This document shows, piece after piece, positions 28,744 through 39,473 of a DNA stretch of 39,706 nucleotides (its first letter is position 1; each line of letters begins with the position of its first letter). A program made the translations under genes and the position numbers. The notes under the pieces are model-generated. The model was not told where the DNA came from. It saw only the letters and a list, made by a program, of their open reading frames with translations, and made no database searches. Source of the DNA: Bacteroidales bacterium (GTDB lineage Bacteria; Bacteroidota; Bacteroidia; Bacteroidales; JAADGE01); the NCBI GenBank assembly GCA_029934705.1, contig JAOZLS010000003.1:1-39706 (forward strand), written 5' to 3'.

Positions 28744-31700
28744 TTACATTTTAAATATTTCTAAAAATTCTTCATCTACTTCTGTTTCAACAATACCTTG
28801 TTCTGTAAGAATATCAAAATAATCTTTTACTTTTTTCACTAAAACATCACCTTCAACATATTCAAAATTAACCCTATCCAAAAATAGCTCAACTCTATCA
28901 ACTGGTTGTCGCATCATATCATAAGATAAACGAGCCGACTCGTTTCTGTGAGTATTAACCCAATTTATTGACTCTTTTAATTCTTCAAGTAAAACTTCTG
29001 TTACTTCGGGATTATTTCTTACAAACTCGCCTTTTAAAACAATACCTGCATTAGGAAAACTACCAAAACCTTTGTTATATTCATTCCATATTTTATTGTA
29101 TGATAGAATTGAAATAGGTTCGCCTCTATCTTCCATAATTTTTATTGCATAGCTAGCTTCTGGCTCTCTAAGAATTACTGTATCGGCTTGTCCTGTAACA
29201 AAATCTGCATAAATCTTTTCTGGTCTGCCAAATGGTTGTCCATAAACAAAATTAAAATCGGCAGGATTTAATCCACTTGCTTTAATCAAATATTTTGTGA
29301 TTTTTGCTGGTGGTGCTTCTTCAAAAAGTGGTGTATGAATTGTTTTTCCTATTAAATCTTTTAAATTTCTAGCTTGATAACCTCTTGTAAGAATTACAAA
29401 ATTATCCCAAACAAAAAGTGCTGGTATTTTAACATCACTATTTCTTAATTTAGCTGAAGTAATTAATGCTGAAAAACTTATATCAGCTTTTCCATTAGCA
29501 ATCCAAGCTAAATGTTTTTCGGTTTCCTCCCAAACTTTTAGTTCTTTAATGTTAACTGCTTTTCGTATTTTTTCAGACTGTAACAATCTCATCATCACAG
29601 GATATGCAACTGGAGTTGCCGACTGAATTACTACATCAAGTTTATTTGATTTTTCTTCATCTGTTTCGCCTTCTGTAACTTTTTTATGAAAATATATCCA
29701 AATTTCTTGATCATCTCTAACTTCGGTAACATGCTCGTAGCCCATTTCCGATAGCATATTAATCATTGGTGTAGGTTCAAATCGTTGAATTAATGTAAAT
29801 CCAGAGTCTTCTTCTATTTCATAAGATTTTTTTATAATTATATCGAAAGGGTCGGTCGTCATTGCCCTAACATCGAGTATTTCAAAATCTTCCTTACGCT
29901 CTTGCCAGTTTACAAGCTTTAATTTTTCATTATTAAAAATTGAAACTCTAAATTCTCGTGTTTTTTCTATATTGAAAGAAAAGTTTAAACCTGAAACTAA
30001 TTTTAATAGCTCAACAGGGTTTTCAACTGAAATTATTACAATATTTTCTTGAGCTTTTAAGGCTGAAACTTTTTGTATAATTTCTGGCATACTATCGTGG
30101 TTGTAAATATAGCGTTCAGCACTTTCGTCCCACGAAATATCGACTCCTGAAATATCTTCATCTTCCAAATTCATTTGTACACACTCAGGCATATTTTTAA
30201 GAAGCTTATTTTCTACTCCTAAAAATTTATTTAATGTATGAAGTATTTCACAAATTGAAATTCCTGTAATTTTTGCTGCATCTTTGAAAGAAGCATATCT
30301 GGCCAAAGTATTATACAAGGCAGGGTTCTGCAATTTTTTTAATTTTGGCGACAAAGTTGTTAATACATCTTTCAATTCAGGATGTCTATCTAAAACTTGC
30401 TTAATGTTAGACTTTGCTAAAACTGGCTCAATATCATTCTCCACCTCTTGCTCTTGCATAACAATTGCATTTACTGGGCAAACATTAAGTGCATCCTGAC
30501 AAAGCTTTTCTTCTTCAGCATTTTTAGGTTGTTTTTTTACAAATGCAACATTGCTATCGTTCATCTCAAAGTTCTTATCAGCAACTTCAACACAAGCTCT
30601 ACAAGAAATACATTCTTCCGTAACTAAATATTTGTTAGTTTCCATAATTTGTATATTATTATTTTTATTATTTTTTCTATATAATTTATACCAAACTATA
30701 AAGCCCGAAATAAGTATAAATAAAATACCTAAGCCTGAAAGTGGTATAAAAAGTATGTAATATTTTCCGAAAAATATTTTATAAAACCTAGCTGTATGAA
30801 TTTCTAAAGCCAAGTTCCATAACGATAATGGCGATTTTTCAATAATAACTTTGGGCATTTTAGTTAATTGCAAACTATTATTAATATTTGCTGCTCCAAA
30901 ATTATAATCAAATATTATTTCTTCTCCAAAAAAGTCTGTTGTAAAACCCGAAACTTTAAATTCACCTATCGGTGGTCCTGCCTTTTTTGGTGCAATATAT
31001 GGAGTCTTCTTTATATAATCTAATATTTCACCTGTTTCGGTATTCCATGCAAAAAGCCCTTCAAATGAGCCTACTAAATAAACATTAGTTGCCATTTTTT
31101 TAAAAACGGTTACCCCCATCATACTTGCTGGTGGCTGAGTTTTATATTTTTTTAGCTTAGTATTAAAATTATCATCGGAATAATAAAAGCCTTCTAAAGT
31201 TGCTATAATAAAACGGTCTTTTTCTTGATCATAAGTTATACGTCGTAAATTATCAAACCACGGGTTTGGTGAATCTAACTTGGTAAACGGGATTTTATCT
31301 ACTTTTGAATAACCAATAAGTGCAATTAATGGCGGACGAAGAAACATTCCTGTAAAAGTTGTTATTACTAGAAAAATTAAGGTTATCCAACCTATTTTAT
31401 TGTGCCATTTTAAATTCCATTTATTAGCTTTTTTAATTGATGATGCTCTTTTCTTTTTTTTCTTTCTACCTTTTAACCTAAAACCATTAACAAAAAAGAT
31501 AAGACCTGTAATACTTAAAAATATAAATATCAAACCTATTAAATCTACGAGTAATTTACCTATCTCGCCATAAATTTCGCCACTATGAATTAGCCAAAAG
31601 GTTTTAAAAAGTCCTATTTTGTTATCATAATTTTCTGGTTCAGGTAATATTTTTGTTTCAAAATTTATTGCATCAACTGTTGTTAATAAATGCGAACGAG

Positions 31701-32175
31701 TTAATACAAATAAAGTATCTTGTTTATATAATAAATCGACTATGCGTTTTTCGTGAACTGGTAACTCTTTTATTTTCCATAGTTTATTTGCAAAATCGTA
31801 TTTATATAAACCGAAAAAAGTTGCAGCAAAAAGCTCCTTTTTATCTGTTTGCAATAATTTACATACCTTACGATTATCAATTCCGCTAGGAAAACCTGTA
31901 TTAAAATCGGTAAATTTATTGAGTGATGAGTTACTTAACCAAATACCAATATTACCATAAGTTAACACACTGTCCTTATTTATTTTAAGTGTTGATTTAA
32001 CGGCTGCATTATTCCAGTTTTTATATTCAAAATCTTTAGGTAAATACTTTCTATCAACATCCATAAACGAGAATGCTTCGCGATGATTTAAAACAATTCC
32101 CGATAATGAAAATAAAATAATAAATATTGTAAGTATGACTCCTAGCCATTTATGGTATTTCTTAAAAAAACTCAT
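28744..32175 (-). CDS. PepSY-type membrane protein fused to ferredoxin, DUF1858-like domain and NMT1/SsuA-like substrate-binding domain
   Basis: 1143 aa: N-term KYHKWLGVILTIFIILFSLSGIVLNHREAFSF (PepSY TM); CISCRACVEVADKNF...CQDALNVCPVNAI; LDRHPELKDVLTTLSPKLKKLQNPALYNTLARYASFKDAAKITGI; C-term SBP-like LDVVIQSATPVAYPVMMRLL...GQADTVILREPEASYAIK. Confidence 0.75.
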   Translation of the reverse strand: MSFFKKYHKWLGVILTIFIILFSLSGIVLNHREAFSFMDVDRKYLPKDFEYKNWNNAAVKSTLKINKDSVLTYGNIGIWLSNSSLNKFTDFNTGFPSGIDNRKVCKLLQTDKKELFAATFFGLYKYDFANKLWKIKELPVHEKRIVDLLYKQDTLFVLTRSHLLTTVDAINFETKILPEPENYDNKIGLFKTFWLIHSGEIYGEIGKLLVDLIGLIFIFLSITGLIFFVNGFRLKGRKKKKKRASSIKKANKWNLKWHNKIGWITLIFLVITTFTGMFLRPPLIALIGYSKVDKIPFTKLDSPNPWFDNLRRITYDQEKDRFIIATLEGFYYSDDNFNTKLKKYKTQPPASMMGVTVFKKMATNVYLVGSFEGLFAWNTETGEILDYIKKTPYIAPKKAGPPIGEFKVSGFTTDFFGEEIIFDYNFGAANINNSLQLTKMPKVIIEKSPLSLWNLALEIHTARFYKIFFGKYYILFIPLSGLGILFILISGFIVWYKLYRKNNKNNNIQIMETNKYLVTEECISCRACVEVADKNFEMNDSNVAFVKKQPKNAEEEKLCQDALNVCPVNAIVMQEQEVENDIEPVLAKSNIKQVLDRHPELKDVLTTLSPKLKKLQNPALYNTLARYASFKDAAKITGISICEILHTLNKFLGVENKLLKNMPECVQMNLEDEDISGVDISWDESAERYIYNHDSMPEIIQKVSALKAQENIVIISVENPVELLKLVSGLNFSFNIEKTREFRVSIFNNEKLKLVNWQERKEDFEILDVRAMTTDPFDIIIKKSYEIEEDSGFTLIQRFEPTPMINMLSEMGYEHVTEVRDDQEIWIYFHKKVTEGETDEEKSNKLDVVIQSATPVAYPVMMRLLQSEKIRKAVNIKELKVWEETEKHLAWIANGKADISFSALITSAKLRNSDVKIPALFVWDNFVILTRGYQARNLKDLIGKTIHTPLFEEAPPAKITKYLIKASGLNPADFNFVYGQPFGRPEKIYADFVTGQADTVILREPEASYAIKIMEDRGEPISILSYNKIWNEYNKGFGSFPNAGIVLKGEFVRNNPEVTEVLLEELKESINWVNTHRNESARLSYDMMRQPVDRVELFLDRVNFEYVEGDVLVKKVKDYFDILTEQGIVETEVDEEFLEIFKM

Positions 32176-32280: not shown

Positions 32281-33468
32281 TTACCAGTCTAATAATTTTC
32301 TATCTCCTTCAATTTTCTGTATTTCAGATATTTCTTGCGAAACTTCCAAAACTCCTTTGTATTCGTTATTTTTATTTCGTACTGCAAAATATTGAATAAG
32401 AACATATTTTGGTCCTAAATGTAGCCAAAATGAAGCAACATTTTTTTCTCCCGACTTAAATGATTCAACTATTTTGTCAACAATATGAACACTTTCTGGG
32501 GGATGACAATTTTGCAATTTACGTCCTACAATTGATGCTGTTCTTGGGAAAATACGATGTACTGGGTCCGAAAAAAATCTTACTGTATCATTTTCATCTA
32601 CATAAGTAATGTCAACAGGCAAATGATTAAAAATCATTTCTATTTGTTGAACAGAAACTTCACCTGTCGCAAATTTTATAACATCATCCTTATTTACAAC
32701 AGATTGTATTTTCTTTTTAGTAGCCTCAACTTCAACAAAAGGTAAACCTAATTCGACAGTTTGCTCAAGCATATTTTCCAATACCTCATGCTTAATTGTT
32801 TCAAGCATTATCGGAAATAACACTTTTTCTTCTCTAAAAATAATTGTATTAATATTGAAAAACACAACACTACTTATTTTATTAAAAGCGGTTAAATCGA
32901 AGTTTTTTGCTTCCAATAATTCTAATGTCTTTTTTATGTTTCGCCTAATATCATCGTGAAAGGACCACATAAGTTTTACACATTGATGCTGCTCCCATTT
33001 TTGCTCTAAAATAGGGAATAATATGTTTTCTTTTACTGTGTAATGAAGTGTGAATTTTTCAAACTCTTTAAAAGTAAGAATAAGCTCTTTAACTGCGTTT
33101 ACATTATATTTTACATTAAGCTCTTTTATATATTTTCTAGAATCTTTTAATTTTTGTAAAATTATAGCGTTATCTTGTTCTAATAAGTTTATAAAAGAGC
33201 TTTTTTGAGCTTTTATTGCGGGGTAATTAGATAAAGTTTTATATAAAATATTAAATAATTTATTAGACACAGTTTTCATGTCTTCAATATTTACATTTTG
33301 CTCAAAAAGTACATCAAAAGTGCTTAAAATATCTTGAGGAATATAGTTTTCAGTTATTATTCCATATTTTTTTACGAGTTCGCCTCCTTTTTCGCCCTTT
33401 ATAACTCCCAACATATACATAGTAAGGTCGTTAACTCTTTTTTCTGCGGTATTTGAAAATTTTGACAT
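32281..33468 (-). CDS. Hemerythrin-like / DUF438-type protein with C-terminal PAS domain
   Basis: 395 aa; HYTVKENILFPILEQKWEQHQC...MWSFHDDIRR...FREEKVLFPIM hemerythrin-like pattern; PAS-like NHLPVDITYVDENDTVRFFSDPVHRIFPRTASIVGRKLQNCHPPESVHIVDKI. Confidence 0.8.
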   Translation of the reverse strand: MSKFSNTAEKRVNDLTMYMLGVIKGEKGGELVKKYGIITENYIPQDILSTFDVLFEQNVNIEDMKTVSNKLFNILYKTLSNYPAIKAQKSSFINLLEQDNAIILQKLKDSRKYIKELNVKYNVNAVKELILTFKEFEKFTLHYTVKENILFPILEQKWEQHQCVKLMWSFHDDIRRNIKKTLELLEAKNFDLTAFNKISSVVFFNINTIIFREEKVLFPIMLETIKHEVLENMLEQTVELGLPFVEVEATKKKIQSVVNKDDVIKFATGEVSVQQIEMIFNHLPVDITYVDENDTVRFFSDPVHRIFPRTASIVGRKLQNCHPPESVHIVDKIVESFKSGEKNVASFWLHLGPKYVLIQYFAVRNKNNEYKGVLEVSQEISEIQKIEGDRKLLDW

Positions 33469-33479
33469 ATTATATATTT

Positions 33480-33893
33480 TTAAAATTTTGATATTTCATT
33501 ATAATCTAAATCAGATAAGGATTTATTTCTAAATACCTCATCAAATTTATCTCTTACACTTACCCATGAACTATGCATAATACAAGGGTTTTCGTCTGAA
33601 CATTGATCAAAGCCCAAGACACAACCACTATATTTATCACTCCCATCAACTGACTCTAAAATATCAATTAATAATATTTGATCTGTGCTTTTATCAAAAG
33701 AATAGCCACCATCTCGTCCTTGAATACTCTTTATAAAACCAGATTTTGACAAAGCTGTTAGTAACCTTCTTAAATACTTGTCAGAAATATGTAAGTTGTC
33801 TATAAGATATTTTGCAGAATATAACTTTTCTGGCTCTTTAGCCATAAAACCTAATATTCTTAATGCATACTCCGATGTTTTGGATAACTTCAT
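33480..33893 (-). CDS. Rrf2 family transcriptional regulator
   Basis: 137 aa; MKLSKTSEYALRILGFMA...LHISDKYLRRLLTALSKSGFIKSIQGRDGGYSF; three Cys in CVLGFDQCSDENPC. Confidence 0.92.
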   Translation of the reverse strand: MKLSKTSEYALRILGFMAKEPEKLYSAKYLIDNLHISDKYLRRLLTALSKSGFIKSIQGRDGGYSFDKSTDQILLIDILESVDGSDKYSGCVLGFDQCSDENPCIMHSSWVSVRDKFDEVFRNKSLSDLDYNEISKF

Positions 33894-34156
33894 CTACTTA
33901 TATTTTATTAAAAACCTGCACATTAGATATGTAAAATTTATTTTTTAGTATCTAAAAGAAGTAAAATATATAAGTTATTCTCTTGTGTATTTTTAAATTA
34001 AACCAAGAGCCTTTTATAAATACTACTTATCTGTATTATTATGCAAATAACGGAATTAATTTTATCATAAGCAAATTATTTAGAATGATTTCAAATAAAG
34101 AAATGTTTTTTTTATTCGTTATTTTTTTATTCATTTGTAACTCACAAAACATAAAA

Positions 34157-34231
34157 ATGATAAGAATAACATTAAATAATTGGTGGCAAACAAGAGAATT
34201 TCTACAAATAGGAAAAGTTCCCTTGGTATAA
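34157..34231 (+). CDS. Candidate trp leader peptide MIRITLNNWWQTREFLQIGKVPLV
   Basis: 24-codon ORF with tandem TGG TGG at 34181-34186, followed 21 nt later by an intrinsic terminator and then trpB. Confidence 0.6.
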   Translation: MIRITLNNWWQTREFLQIGKVPLV

Positions 34232-34252
34232 TTGTGTCATCACAAAAAATAT

Positions 34253-34284
34253 AAAGCCGTTGGATTTTCCAACGGCTTTTTTTT
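34253..34284 (+). terminator. Intrinsic terminator/attenuator upstream of trpB
   Basis: AAAGCCGTTGG-ATTTT-CCAACGGCTTT followed by TTTTT; no upstream + strand gene other than the Trp-codon leader ORF. Confidence 0.85.
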
Positions 34285-34420
34285 ATGTCTAATTTTAATG
34301 AAAATGAAAAACGAAATTATTATAACTTGGATTAACAAGACTGAAAATCGTTGGCGTTACTCAAATAGAGTAGAACAAAACAACAATTTTTAAAAATTCA
34401 TTAATAATAAAGTTAATACA

Positions 34421-35593
34421 ATGACAACAAATACAACAACAATACAGGAAAAAAGACAAGGTTATTTCGGACAATTTGGAGGAGCTTATGTGCCACCAGC
34501 TATTGCAGATAAATTACAAAACTTAGCCGAAGAATTTTATCGAATAAAAAAAGACAAGGAGTTCGAAAAAGAGTACATTGAATTATTAAAAACTTATGTT
34601 GGTCGTCCTTCACCGCTATTTTATGCAAAAAGATTATCGGAGAAAGTGGGCAGTAAAATTTATTTAAAGCGAGAAGATTTAAACCATACTGGAGCTCACA
34701 AAATAAACAATACTATTGGTCAAATTCTGTTAGCAAAAAAAATGGGAGCAAAAACTATTTTGGCAGAAACAGGAGCAGGACAGCATGGAGTAGCAACTGC
34801 TACTGCTGCAGCACTTTTTGGTCTGAAATGCAAAGTGTTTATGGGAGCGACAGATATTGAGCGACAAGCACTTAATGTAAACAGAATGGAGCTTTTAGGA
34901 GCAGAAGTTATTAGTGTAACACAAGGACAAGGAACATTAAAAGATGCCGTTGATTTTGCTTTAGGATATTACATTGAACACCCAGATGCTTATTATTTAC
35001 TAGGTTCGGCAGTTGGTCCACACCCCTACCCTGAAATGGTTGGATATTTTCAAAGCATAATTGGAAAAGAAGCAAAAAAACAAATACTTGAGGTTGAAGG
35101 CAAGCTCCCTGACTCACTAATAGCATGTATCGGAGGAGGTTCAAATGCAATTGGTCTTTTTAAAGAATTTTTAGATGATGAAAATGTTAAGATTTATGCT
35201 GCCGAAGGTGCAGGCGAAGGACTTGATTCAGGAAGAACTGCAGCAACTCTAAATTTAGGTAAAAGAATGGTTTTTCAAGGAGCCGATTCATTTTGTTTAG
35301 CTGATGAAGACGGAAATCCAATTGGTTCATATTCAATTGCGGCAGGATTAGATTACCCCGGAATTGGTCCAGAACATGCACACCTAAACGATATTAACAG
35401 GGTAGAATATCATGGAATAACAGATAAAGAAGCAATTGATGCTTTTAAAGAGCTATCTCATTTAGAAGGAATAATACCAGCAATTGAATCGGCACATGCA
35501 ATTGCTTTAGCCATGAAATTACTGAAAAATAAAAATGAAGTAACAATTGTAAACCTCTCGGGAAGAGGCGACAAAGATGTTGTTAGAATGTAG
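34421..35593 (+). CDS. trpB: Tryptophan synthase beta chain
   Basis: 390 aa; YFGQFGGAYVPP..., KREDLNHTGAHKINNTIGQ (PLP Lys), GGGSNAIGLF, GRGDKDV. Confidence 0.96.
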   Translation: MTTNTTTIQEKRQGYFGQFGGAYVPPAIADKLQNLAEEFYRIKKDKEFEKEYIELLKTYVGRPSPLFYAKRLSEKVGSKIYLKREDLNHTGAHKINNTIGQILLAKKMGAKTILAETGAGQHGVATATAAALFGLKCKVFMGATDIERQALNVNRMELLGAEVISVTQGQGTLKDAVDFALGYYIEHPDAYYLLGSAVGPHPYPEMVGYFQSIIGKEAKKQILEVEGKLPDSLIACIGGGSNAIGLFKEFLDDENVKIYAAEGAGEGLDSGRTAATLNLGKRMVFQGADSFCLADEDGNPIGSYSIAAGLDYPGIGPEHAHLNDINRVEYHGITDKEAIDAFKELSHLEGIIPAIESAHAIALAMKLLKNKNEVTIVNLSGRGDKDVVRM

Positions 35594-35608: not shown

Positions 35609-35649
35609 AAAAGAAACTCCAACAAAATTTAATTTGTTGGAGTTTCTTT
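35609..35649. terminator. Bidirectional intrinsic terminator between trpB and the convergent gene
   Basis: AAAGAAACTCCAACAAA-ATTTAA-TTTGTTGGAGTTTCTTT near-perfect long stem. Confidence 0.85.
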
Positions 35650-39073: not shown

Positions 39074-39473
39074 GGGGTCGTTTTTGGTTTTGACTGCAAG
39101 GATAATGGATTTGTAAGCATGTCGAGCTATGTGGATTAACTCGTAAAACTGATTTGCAACTTTTTAAACGGCGAAAATAACTACGCTCTTGCTGCATAAT
39201 CGAAGTTTAGTAGATTAAGCTTAATTCTGGTACTAGGTATTAGAACGAGACATCTCGCAAACAGGACTGTCTGATTCCAGTTTGCTTATGAGGTGTGATA
39301 AATTTCAGAATTGCTTGAACGATATCTTGACGTTTGGGTGAAATAAAGAGAATAAGGTTTTGCTTTGGGTGCTTTTTCCCGTACAAAGCTCGAAAATTAA
39401 TAAAGAGATAAACATGTAGAAAGCACTTTTGTTACTTGTTTGGACGAGGGTTCGAACCCCTCCGGCTCCACAA
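39074..39473 (+). ncRNA. ssrA: Transfer-messenger RNA (tmRNA), tag GENNYALAA
   Basis: 5' GGGGTCG pairs with 3' CGGCTCC; T-arm GGGTTCGAACCCC; tag ORF GGC GAA AAT AAC TAC GCT CTT GCT GCA TAA (39170-39199). CCA not encoded. Confidence 0.95.

Follow-up and report, generated by a model that had tools for sequence, protein, structure and literature searches.

The window, by which we mean the whole stretch of 39,706 nt analysed here, carries a short leader ORF with two adjacent Trp codons, an intrinsic terminator, a second mini-ORF and a stand-alone tryptophan synthase beta chain gene (trpB) in this order. The features on which the analysis rests are as follows.

34130-34137, plus strand: promoter-like -7 element TTCATTTG, with one mismatch to the Bacteroidetes consensus TAnnTTTG
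34157-34231, plus strand: leader ORF1 MIRITLNNWWQTREFLQIGKVPLV, from the ATG at 34157 to the TAA at 34231; NNWW/WWW kept in relatives
34181-34186, plus strand: tandem Trp codons of ORF1, the proposed sensor; TGGTGG is invariant in the leader alignment of relatives
34211-34227, plus strand: region 2, putative 5' strand of the antiterminator, overlapping the ORF1 end and pairing with 34256-34270 (partner-swap p = 3.5e-4)
34253-34284, plus strand: intrinsic terminator, 11-bp stem and T run, recognised by folding and by covariation in relatives
34298-34393, plus strand: ORF2 MKMKNEIIITWINKTENRWRYSNRVEQNNNF, its two Trp codons being 34328-34330 and 34352-34354; alternative start at 34304, conserved W-x7-W peptide
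34421-35593, plus strand: trpB, encoding a Trp-free stand-alone tryptophan synthase beta chain of 390 aa (TIGR00263, 558 bits, cut-off 392)
35610-35649, plus strand: strong hairpin ending in TTTCTTT behind trpB (z = -7.0)

The arms of the terminator stem, AAAGCCGTTGG and CCAACGGCTTT, form a perfect 11-bp hairpin (34253-34279) followed by a T run up to 34284. The stem begins 21 nt behind the ORF1 stop codon and 66 nt behind the last Trp codon. The first-pass annotation had placed ORF, hairpin, T run and trpB correctly to the base, and its estimate of a gap of about 66 nt agrees with the measured distance. It had also noted that the neighbouring Rrf2 gene runs the other way and that the terminator has no other plus-strand gene to end, and this holds: the Rrf2 gene (33480-33893, minus strand) is divergent from trpB and therefore cannot use the terminator at 34253-34284, so that a terminator of the Rrf2 gene's own was ruled out.

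Other in-frame ATGs exist upstream of 34157 and could also start ORF1. We favour 34157 as the start, both from comparison with relatives and from where the promoter-like element lies. TAnnTTTG is the Bacteroidetes -7 consensus (PMC7366714); its TTTG occupies a position near -23 relative to the ATG of ORF1 in 13 of 13 family members, and a -7-like element was found before ORF1 at 24 of 28 loci, compared with 5 of 28 in a control stretch. Between terminator and trpB the motif is absent in the window and was found at a single locus (L035), and an internal promoter 3' of the terminator was rejected. Occurrences of TAnnTTTG at the ORF1 stop of relatives were likewise rejected as promoters, being better explained by antiterminator pairing with CAAAG.

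An orphan trpB gene and its Trp-free product

The window trpB encodes a class 1 enzyme and the sole TrpB of its genome, and its message is probably monocistronic because a strong hairpin follows the gene. The window's genome contains no trpA over the curated cut-off and no IGPS (trpC) gene, absences that are provisional in draft MAGs such as these. Its best trpE-like match is partial (206 bits, compared with about 390-440 bits in trp-operon genomes, while no genome passed the trpE model's own cut-off). The single orphan trpB first seen within the window is therefore borne out genome-wide, with trpA, trpC and a good trpE all absent. Among 98 relatives, 21 genomes (the window's included) encode a TrpB of the same clade, and trpA, trpC and a good trpE are absent in 19 of these 21, again including the window's own. 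G044 and G077, the remaining two, also contain a trp operon, distinct from this gene and encoding another TrpB. In the tree, the 35 orphan TrpBs group together (100/99), and the trp-operon-type TrpBs found in other Bacteroidota fall outside this clade.

As trpA, trpC and trpE are not recognisable, TrpB would be limited to serine and indole as substrates. With a tryptophanase encoded in the same genome (best PDB match 8sbg, Tryptophanase), trpB probably salvages indole, and making Trp from indole and serine would be its simplest role. In three genomes (G005, G008 and G010) about 2-5 kb separate the orphan trpB from the tryptophanase gene.

Trp is absent from 34 of the 35 orphan TrpBs and from all four held-out ones, while all 17 other TrpBs compared contain at least one. 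Tyr stands in for the canonical Trp of LBCA position 174 in 33 of 35 orphan TrpBs. Trp averages 1.25% in the long ORFs of the window, which corresponds to 4.9 expected residues per 390. Lacking Trp, the enzyme could be produced during the very starvation proposed to induce it. ORF2 is missing at L021, the one locus of the clade whose TrpB does contain Trp.

Compared with PDB sequences, the window TrpB matches LBCA (5ey5) best. The stand-alone TrpB of Pelodictyon luteolum and LBCA-TrpB indicate that TrpB1 activity without TrpA is possible (PMC11917138). P. luteolum possesses trpA, which is absent here, and the six LBCA residues (Res6), all present in the P. luteolum TrpB, are mostly not retained in our clade, S187 being found in 35 of 35 orphan TrpBs, T53 in none of the 35 and the rest being variable. 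Res6 was rejected as the reason for stand-alone activity, since the six residues are not all present.

The leader, its terminator and an alternative pairing

A WW or WWW leader with a terminator precedes 33 of the 35 orphan trpB genes, a monophyletic Bacteroidales clade, and the distance from the last Trp codon to the terminator stem at these loci is 48-69 nt; L016 and L042 have no leader. Covariation analysis of the terminator showed 96.9% of cells paired and both-side changes in 7 of 10 pairs, and none of 500 shuffles was as good. The 151-nt fold of the leader region gave z = -4.7. An ATG-started frame with TGGTGG and a strong terminator 35-90 nt downstream occurred once in the window (both strands searched) and in none of 100 dinucleotide shuffles, and a chance origin of the combination was rejected on this ground.

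A covariance model built from the orphan trpB leaders recovered 17 of them at E below 2e-8, matches that are expected by construction. Those to other groups are not, and at about 1e-5 to 1e-2 the model also matched leaders that precede complete trp operons or stand-alone genes of the TrpB2 type in other Bacteroidales. The TrpB2-type genes (L227, L228, L229 and L230, in G065, G061, G086 and G060, respectively) each have a WWW leader and a terminator and no ORF2. Weak matches at other genes (L231-L241) were discarded as ordinary terminators without WW leaders. One genome, G002, carries two tandem attenuators before a single trpB (L015, C55:47650-47926), both complete with WW leader and terminator. 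Judged from these leaders, Bacteroidales appear to use Trp attenuation for biosynthesis and salvage genes alike.

The first-pass annotation had read the locus as a trpL-type attenuator on trpB and could see no convincing antiterminator by eye. Its reading gains from the conserved leader and the covarying terminator of the relatives, and two of the checks it had proposed, comparison with relatives and folding for alternative structures, came out in its favour; as to the antiterminator, a candidate is present. Region 2 can pair with 34256-34270, that is 34211-34216 (GGAAAA) with 34265-34270 (TTTTCC), 34219-34221 with 34262-34264 and 34224-34227 with 34256-34259. Folding the transcript up to a point where the terminator is still incomplete gave this structure as the lowest in energy (-11.6 kcal/mol, and -12.9 for a slightly longer stretch). 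In other lineages these two sites pair via other sequences (such as GGAG/CTCC, GGGGG/CCCCC and GAAAAAGC/GCTTTTTC), and swapping partners among 19 representatives resulted in weaker pairing (z = -3.8, p = 3.5e-4). The support drops, with modest covariation, when the alignment register is fixed, and antiterminators are poor in L002, L049, L050 and L103.

Region 2 extends from 24 nt past the second Trp codon almost to the stop codon, a geometry that fits trpL logic. According to the folds, antiterminator and terminator would be mutually exclusive, region 2 being free when a ribosome stalls at the Trp codons and masked when it stands at the stop codon. In the folds themselves, no conserved separate 1:2 pause or protector hairpin was apparent.

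We consider it very probable that the leader is a ribosome-mediated attenuator which responds to charged tRNA-Trp and governs a stand-alone TrpB probably engaged in indole salvage. The parts, their conservation, the covariation of the terminator, the alternative pairing, the orphan status of trpB and the lack of Trp in its product are established from sequence, and from them we infer the following course. Transcription would begin a short way upstream of ORF1. At a plentiful supply of Trp, the ribosome would reach the ORF1 stop codon and cover region 2, the terminator would form and trpB would not be transcribed. When Trp is scarce, stalling at the tandem Trp codons would halt the ribosome about 25 nt before region 2. 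Region 2 would then pair with the terminator's 5' arm and loop, and the polymerase would continue through ORF2 and trpB. TrpB would make Trp from serine and indole, either imported or left by the cell's own tryptophanase, and keeping trpB off at plentiful Trp would avoid a futile cycle with that enzyme. ORF2 may add a second layer to the control.

The terminator could instead be driven by another sensor, with ORF1 being incidental. T-box, TRAP-like protein or riboswitch control of trp genes occurs in other bacteria, which gives this reading some precedent, but nothing in the window or the leader region exceeded an Rfam gathering score except a tmRNA, and the T-box covariance model had no match among the Rfam matches of either. 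Moreover, the leader is too short for a T-box and the invariant upstream letters are the Trp codons themselves, all of which makes a sensor other than the translating ribosome very unlikely. That WW ORF and hairpin are unrelated, a chance ORF standing before an ordinary terminator that belongs to some small RNA or upstream transcript, could appeal to the commonness of intrinsic terminators and to region 2 alone folding only modestly better than shuffles (z = -1.2), but is scarcely credible against the WW-terminator spacing conserved at 33 of 35 loci, the covariation, the antiterminator, the empty shuffles and the lack of any upstream plus-strand gene needing termination.

ORF2 behind the terminator

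Both ORF2 and the Trp-free enzyme had been missed by the first-pass annotation. Relatives of ORF2 were found at 29 of 35 loci and share M..I..W-x7-W, with residues such as [IL][KN]K[VI][IE][FN]RW; one Trp is lost in L015 (the second) and in L046. No ORF2 was found at L016, L042 and L021, and L051 and L052 have another second mini-ORF behind the terminator, with a shared RW..A.ATETN motif and no W-x7-W. Among the trp operon leaders examined, none had a W-x7-W ORF. Because TrpB is Trp-free, the two Trp codons of ORF2 are the only ones in the window's message behind the terminator.

Codon comparison of the 13 closest loci gave 193 synonymous and 97 nonsynonymous single-change differences, where 18% of possible changes are synonymous. 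The crude dN/dS is near 0.1, a rough value since sequence pairs are not independent. By this codon pattern, ORF2 is under apparent purifying selection as a peptide. In the 98 relatives, all matches of an ORF2 profile below E 1e-4 stood ahead of an orphan trpB (17 genomes), and no ORF2-like peptide below E 0.005 was seen elsewhere, the weaker matches being partial and chance-like. In a fresh set of 394 genomes the profile found 5 new ones, 4 of which have a WW leader, a terminator and an orphan-type trpB; for the extra match (L246) the fragment carries no trpB. As far as these profile searches reach, ORF2 seems almost exclusively linked to orphan trpB. The distance from terminator to ORF2 start is near-constant (median 26 nt, 26 of 27 within 16-35), and that from ORF2 to trpB ranges from in-frame fusion up to 186 nt. 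At one locus (L193:8382-9683, the L036 locus) ORF2 reads in frame into trpB without a stop, giving a 433-aa frame that may be a natural fusion or an accident.

ORF2 may act only via its two Trp codons or via ribosome loading behind the terminator, by shielding the message or by feeding re-initiation at trpB, its product being functionless. The near-constant distance from the terminator and the retention of two Trp codons before an enzyme with none are consistent with this, and re-initiation from leader ORFs has been proposed (PMC4833913). However, non-Trp residues are conserved too, and the gap to trpB, from fusion to 186 nt, is far from the 11-14 bp favoured for re-initiation. Masking of the trpB start by RNA structure was rejected (mean z = -0.2), and no folding signal was detected from ORF2 to trpB. 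A role confined to codons or loading is thus a serious candidate, to which we give somewhat less than even weight.

Alternatively, the peptide itself may work, either as a nascent chain sensed on the ribosome or as a micropeptide on TrpB, for example replacing TrpA. The purifying selection, the linkage to orphan TrpB without TrpA and the one natural in-frame fusion argue for it. Against it, the fusion is possibly accidental, and its AlphaFold model was uninformative, the peptide part having pLDDT below 30 and no docking. Three loci (L016, L042 and L021) manage without ORF2. The motif residues of TnaC are W12, D16 and P24, but the ORF2 alignment has only W-x7-W and no conserved Asp or Pro of a TnaC-type arrest motif. 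We tentatively suggest, as a possibility that falls short of being probable and carries the same weight as the codon or loading view, that ORF2 represents a Trp-linked micropeptide or arrest peptide of a new class, whose sequence, and not its codons alone, controls TrpB synthesis or activity, for example by replacing TrpA or by sensing Trp on the ribosome. The remaining weight lies with causes we have not thought of. With a Trp-free enzyme and two Trp codons kept in a conserved mini-ORF, the role of ORF2 is a sharp and testable question.

Relation to known systems

The best-documented cases of leader-peptide attenuation come from Proteobacteria and Actinobacteria. E. coli trpL (RF00513, Trp_leader) has the same short ORF with tandem Trp codons, a terminator, an exclusive antiterminator and similar spacing. 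The present leader differs from trpL in phylum and sequence (RF00513 scores 20.1 bits on it, below the gathering threshold of 41), in its single orphan trpB target, in a region 2 that overlaps the end of the leader ORF and pairs with terminator arm and loop, and in the second conserved ORF after the terminator. From its sequence, the leader would be trpL-like in working and outside the Rfam Trp_leader family. Leader-peptide attenuation has been inferred before amino-acid operons of Flavobacterium psychrophilum, in a text that does not mention trp (PMC9723704), which gives the principle some precedent in the phylum; phylum and principle are shared, whereas the target here is a salvage gene and the evidence comparative.

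Chlamydia trachomatis trpRBA serves indole salvage under the repressors TrpR and YtgR (PMC7755916). It shares the truncated, indole-using pathway and Trp-responsive control with our locus, but uses repressors and has trpA, where a leader peptide and no trpA are found here. The Salmonella mgtCBR leader has two short ORFs and tandem attenuators (PMC3641672), resembling our locus in having more than one regulatory mini-ORF before the gene, and E. coli TnaC is likewise a Trp-sensing leader peptide (PMC8429421). In contrast to these, the second ORF here lies behind the terminator, without a terminator of its own and without the TnaC motif.

The attenuator is of a known kind in a new setting. In the open-access literature searched, no description of this leader or of ORF2 was found. 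The comparison extends leader-peptide attenuation across Bacteroidales, on salvage as well as biosynthetic genes. It also suggests how Trp-destroying and Trp-making enzymes may coexist without a futile cycle, a point relevant to how indole and Trp are exchanged in microbial communities.

Other features of the window were observed on the way. The Rrf2 regulator adjoins a hemerythrin/PAS protein (32281-33893, minus strand), possibly a nitrosative or redox stress pair. A 1143-aa ORF (28744-32175, minus strand) combines PepSY_TM, 4Fe-4S ferredoxin, DUF1858 and DUF2249 domains in an unusual mix, and the tmRNA gene lies at 39074-39473 on the plus strand (RF00023, 140 bits).
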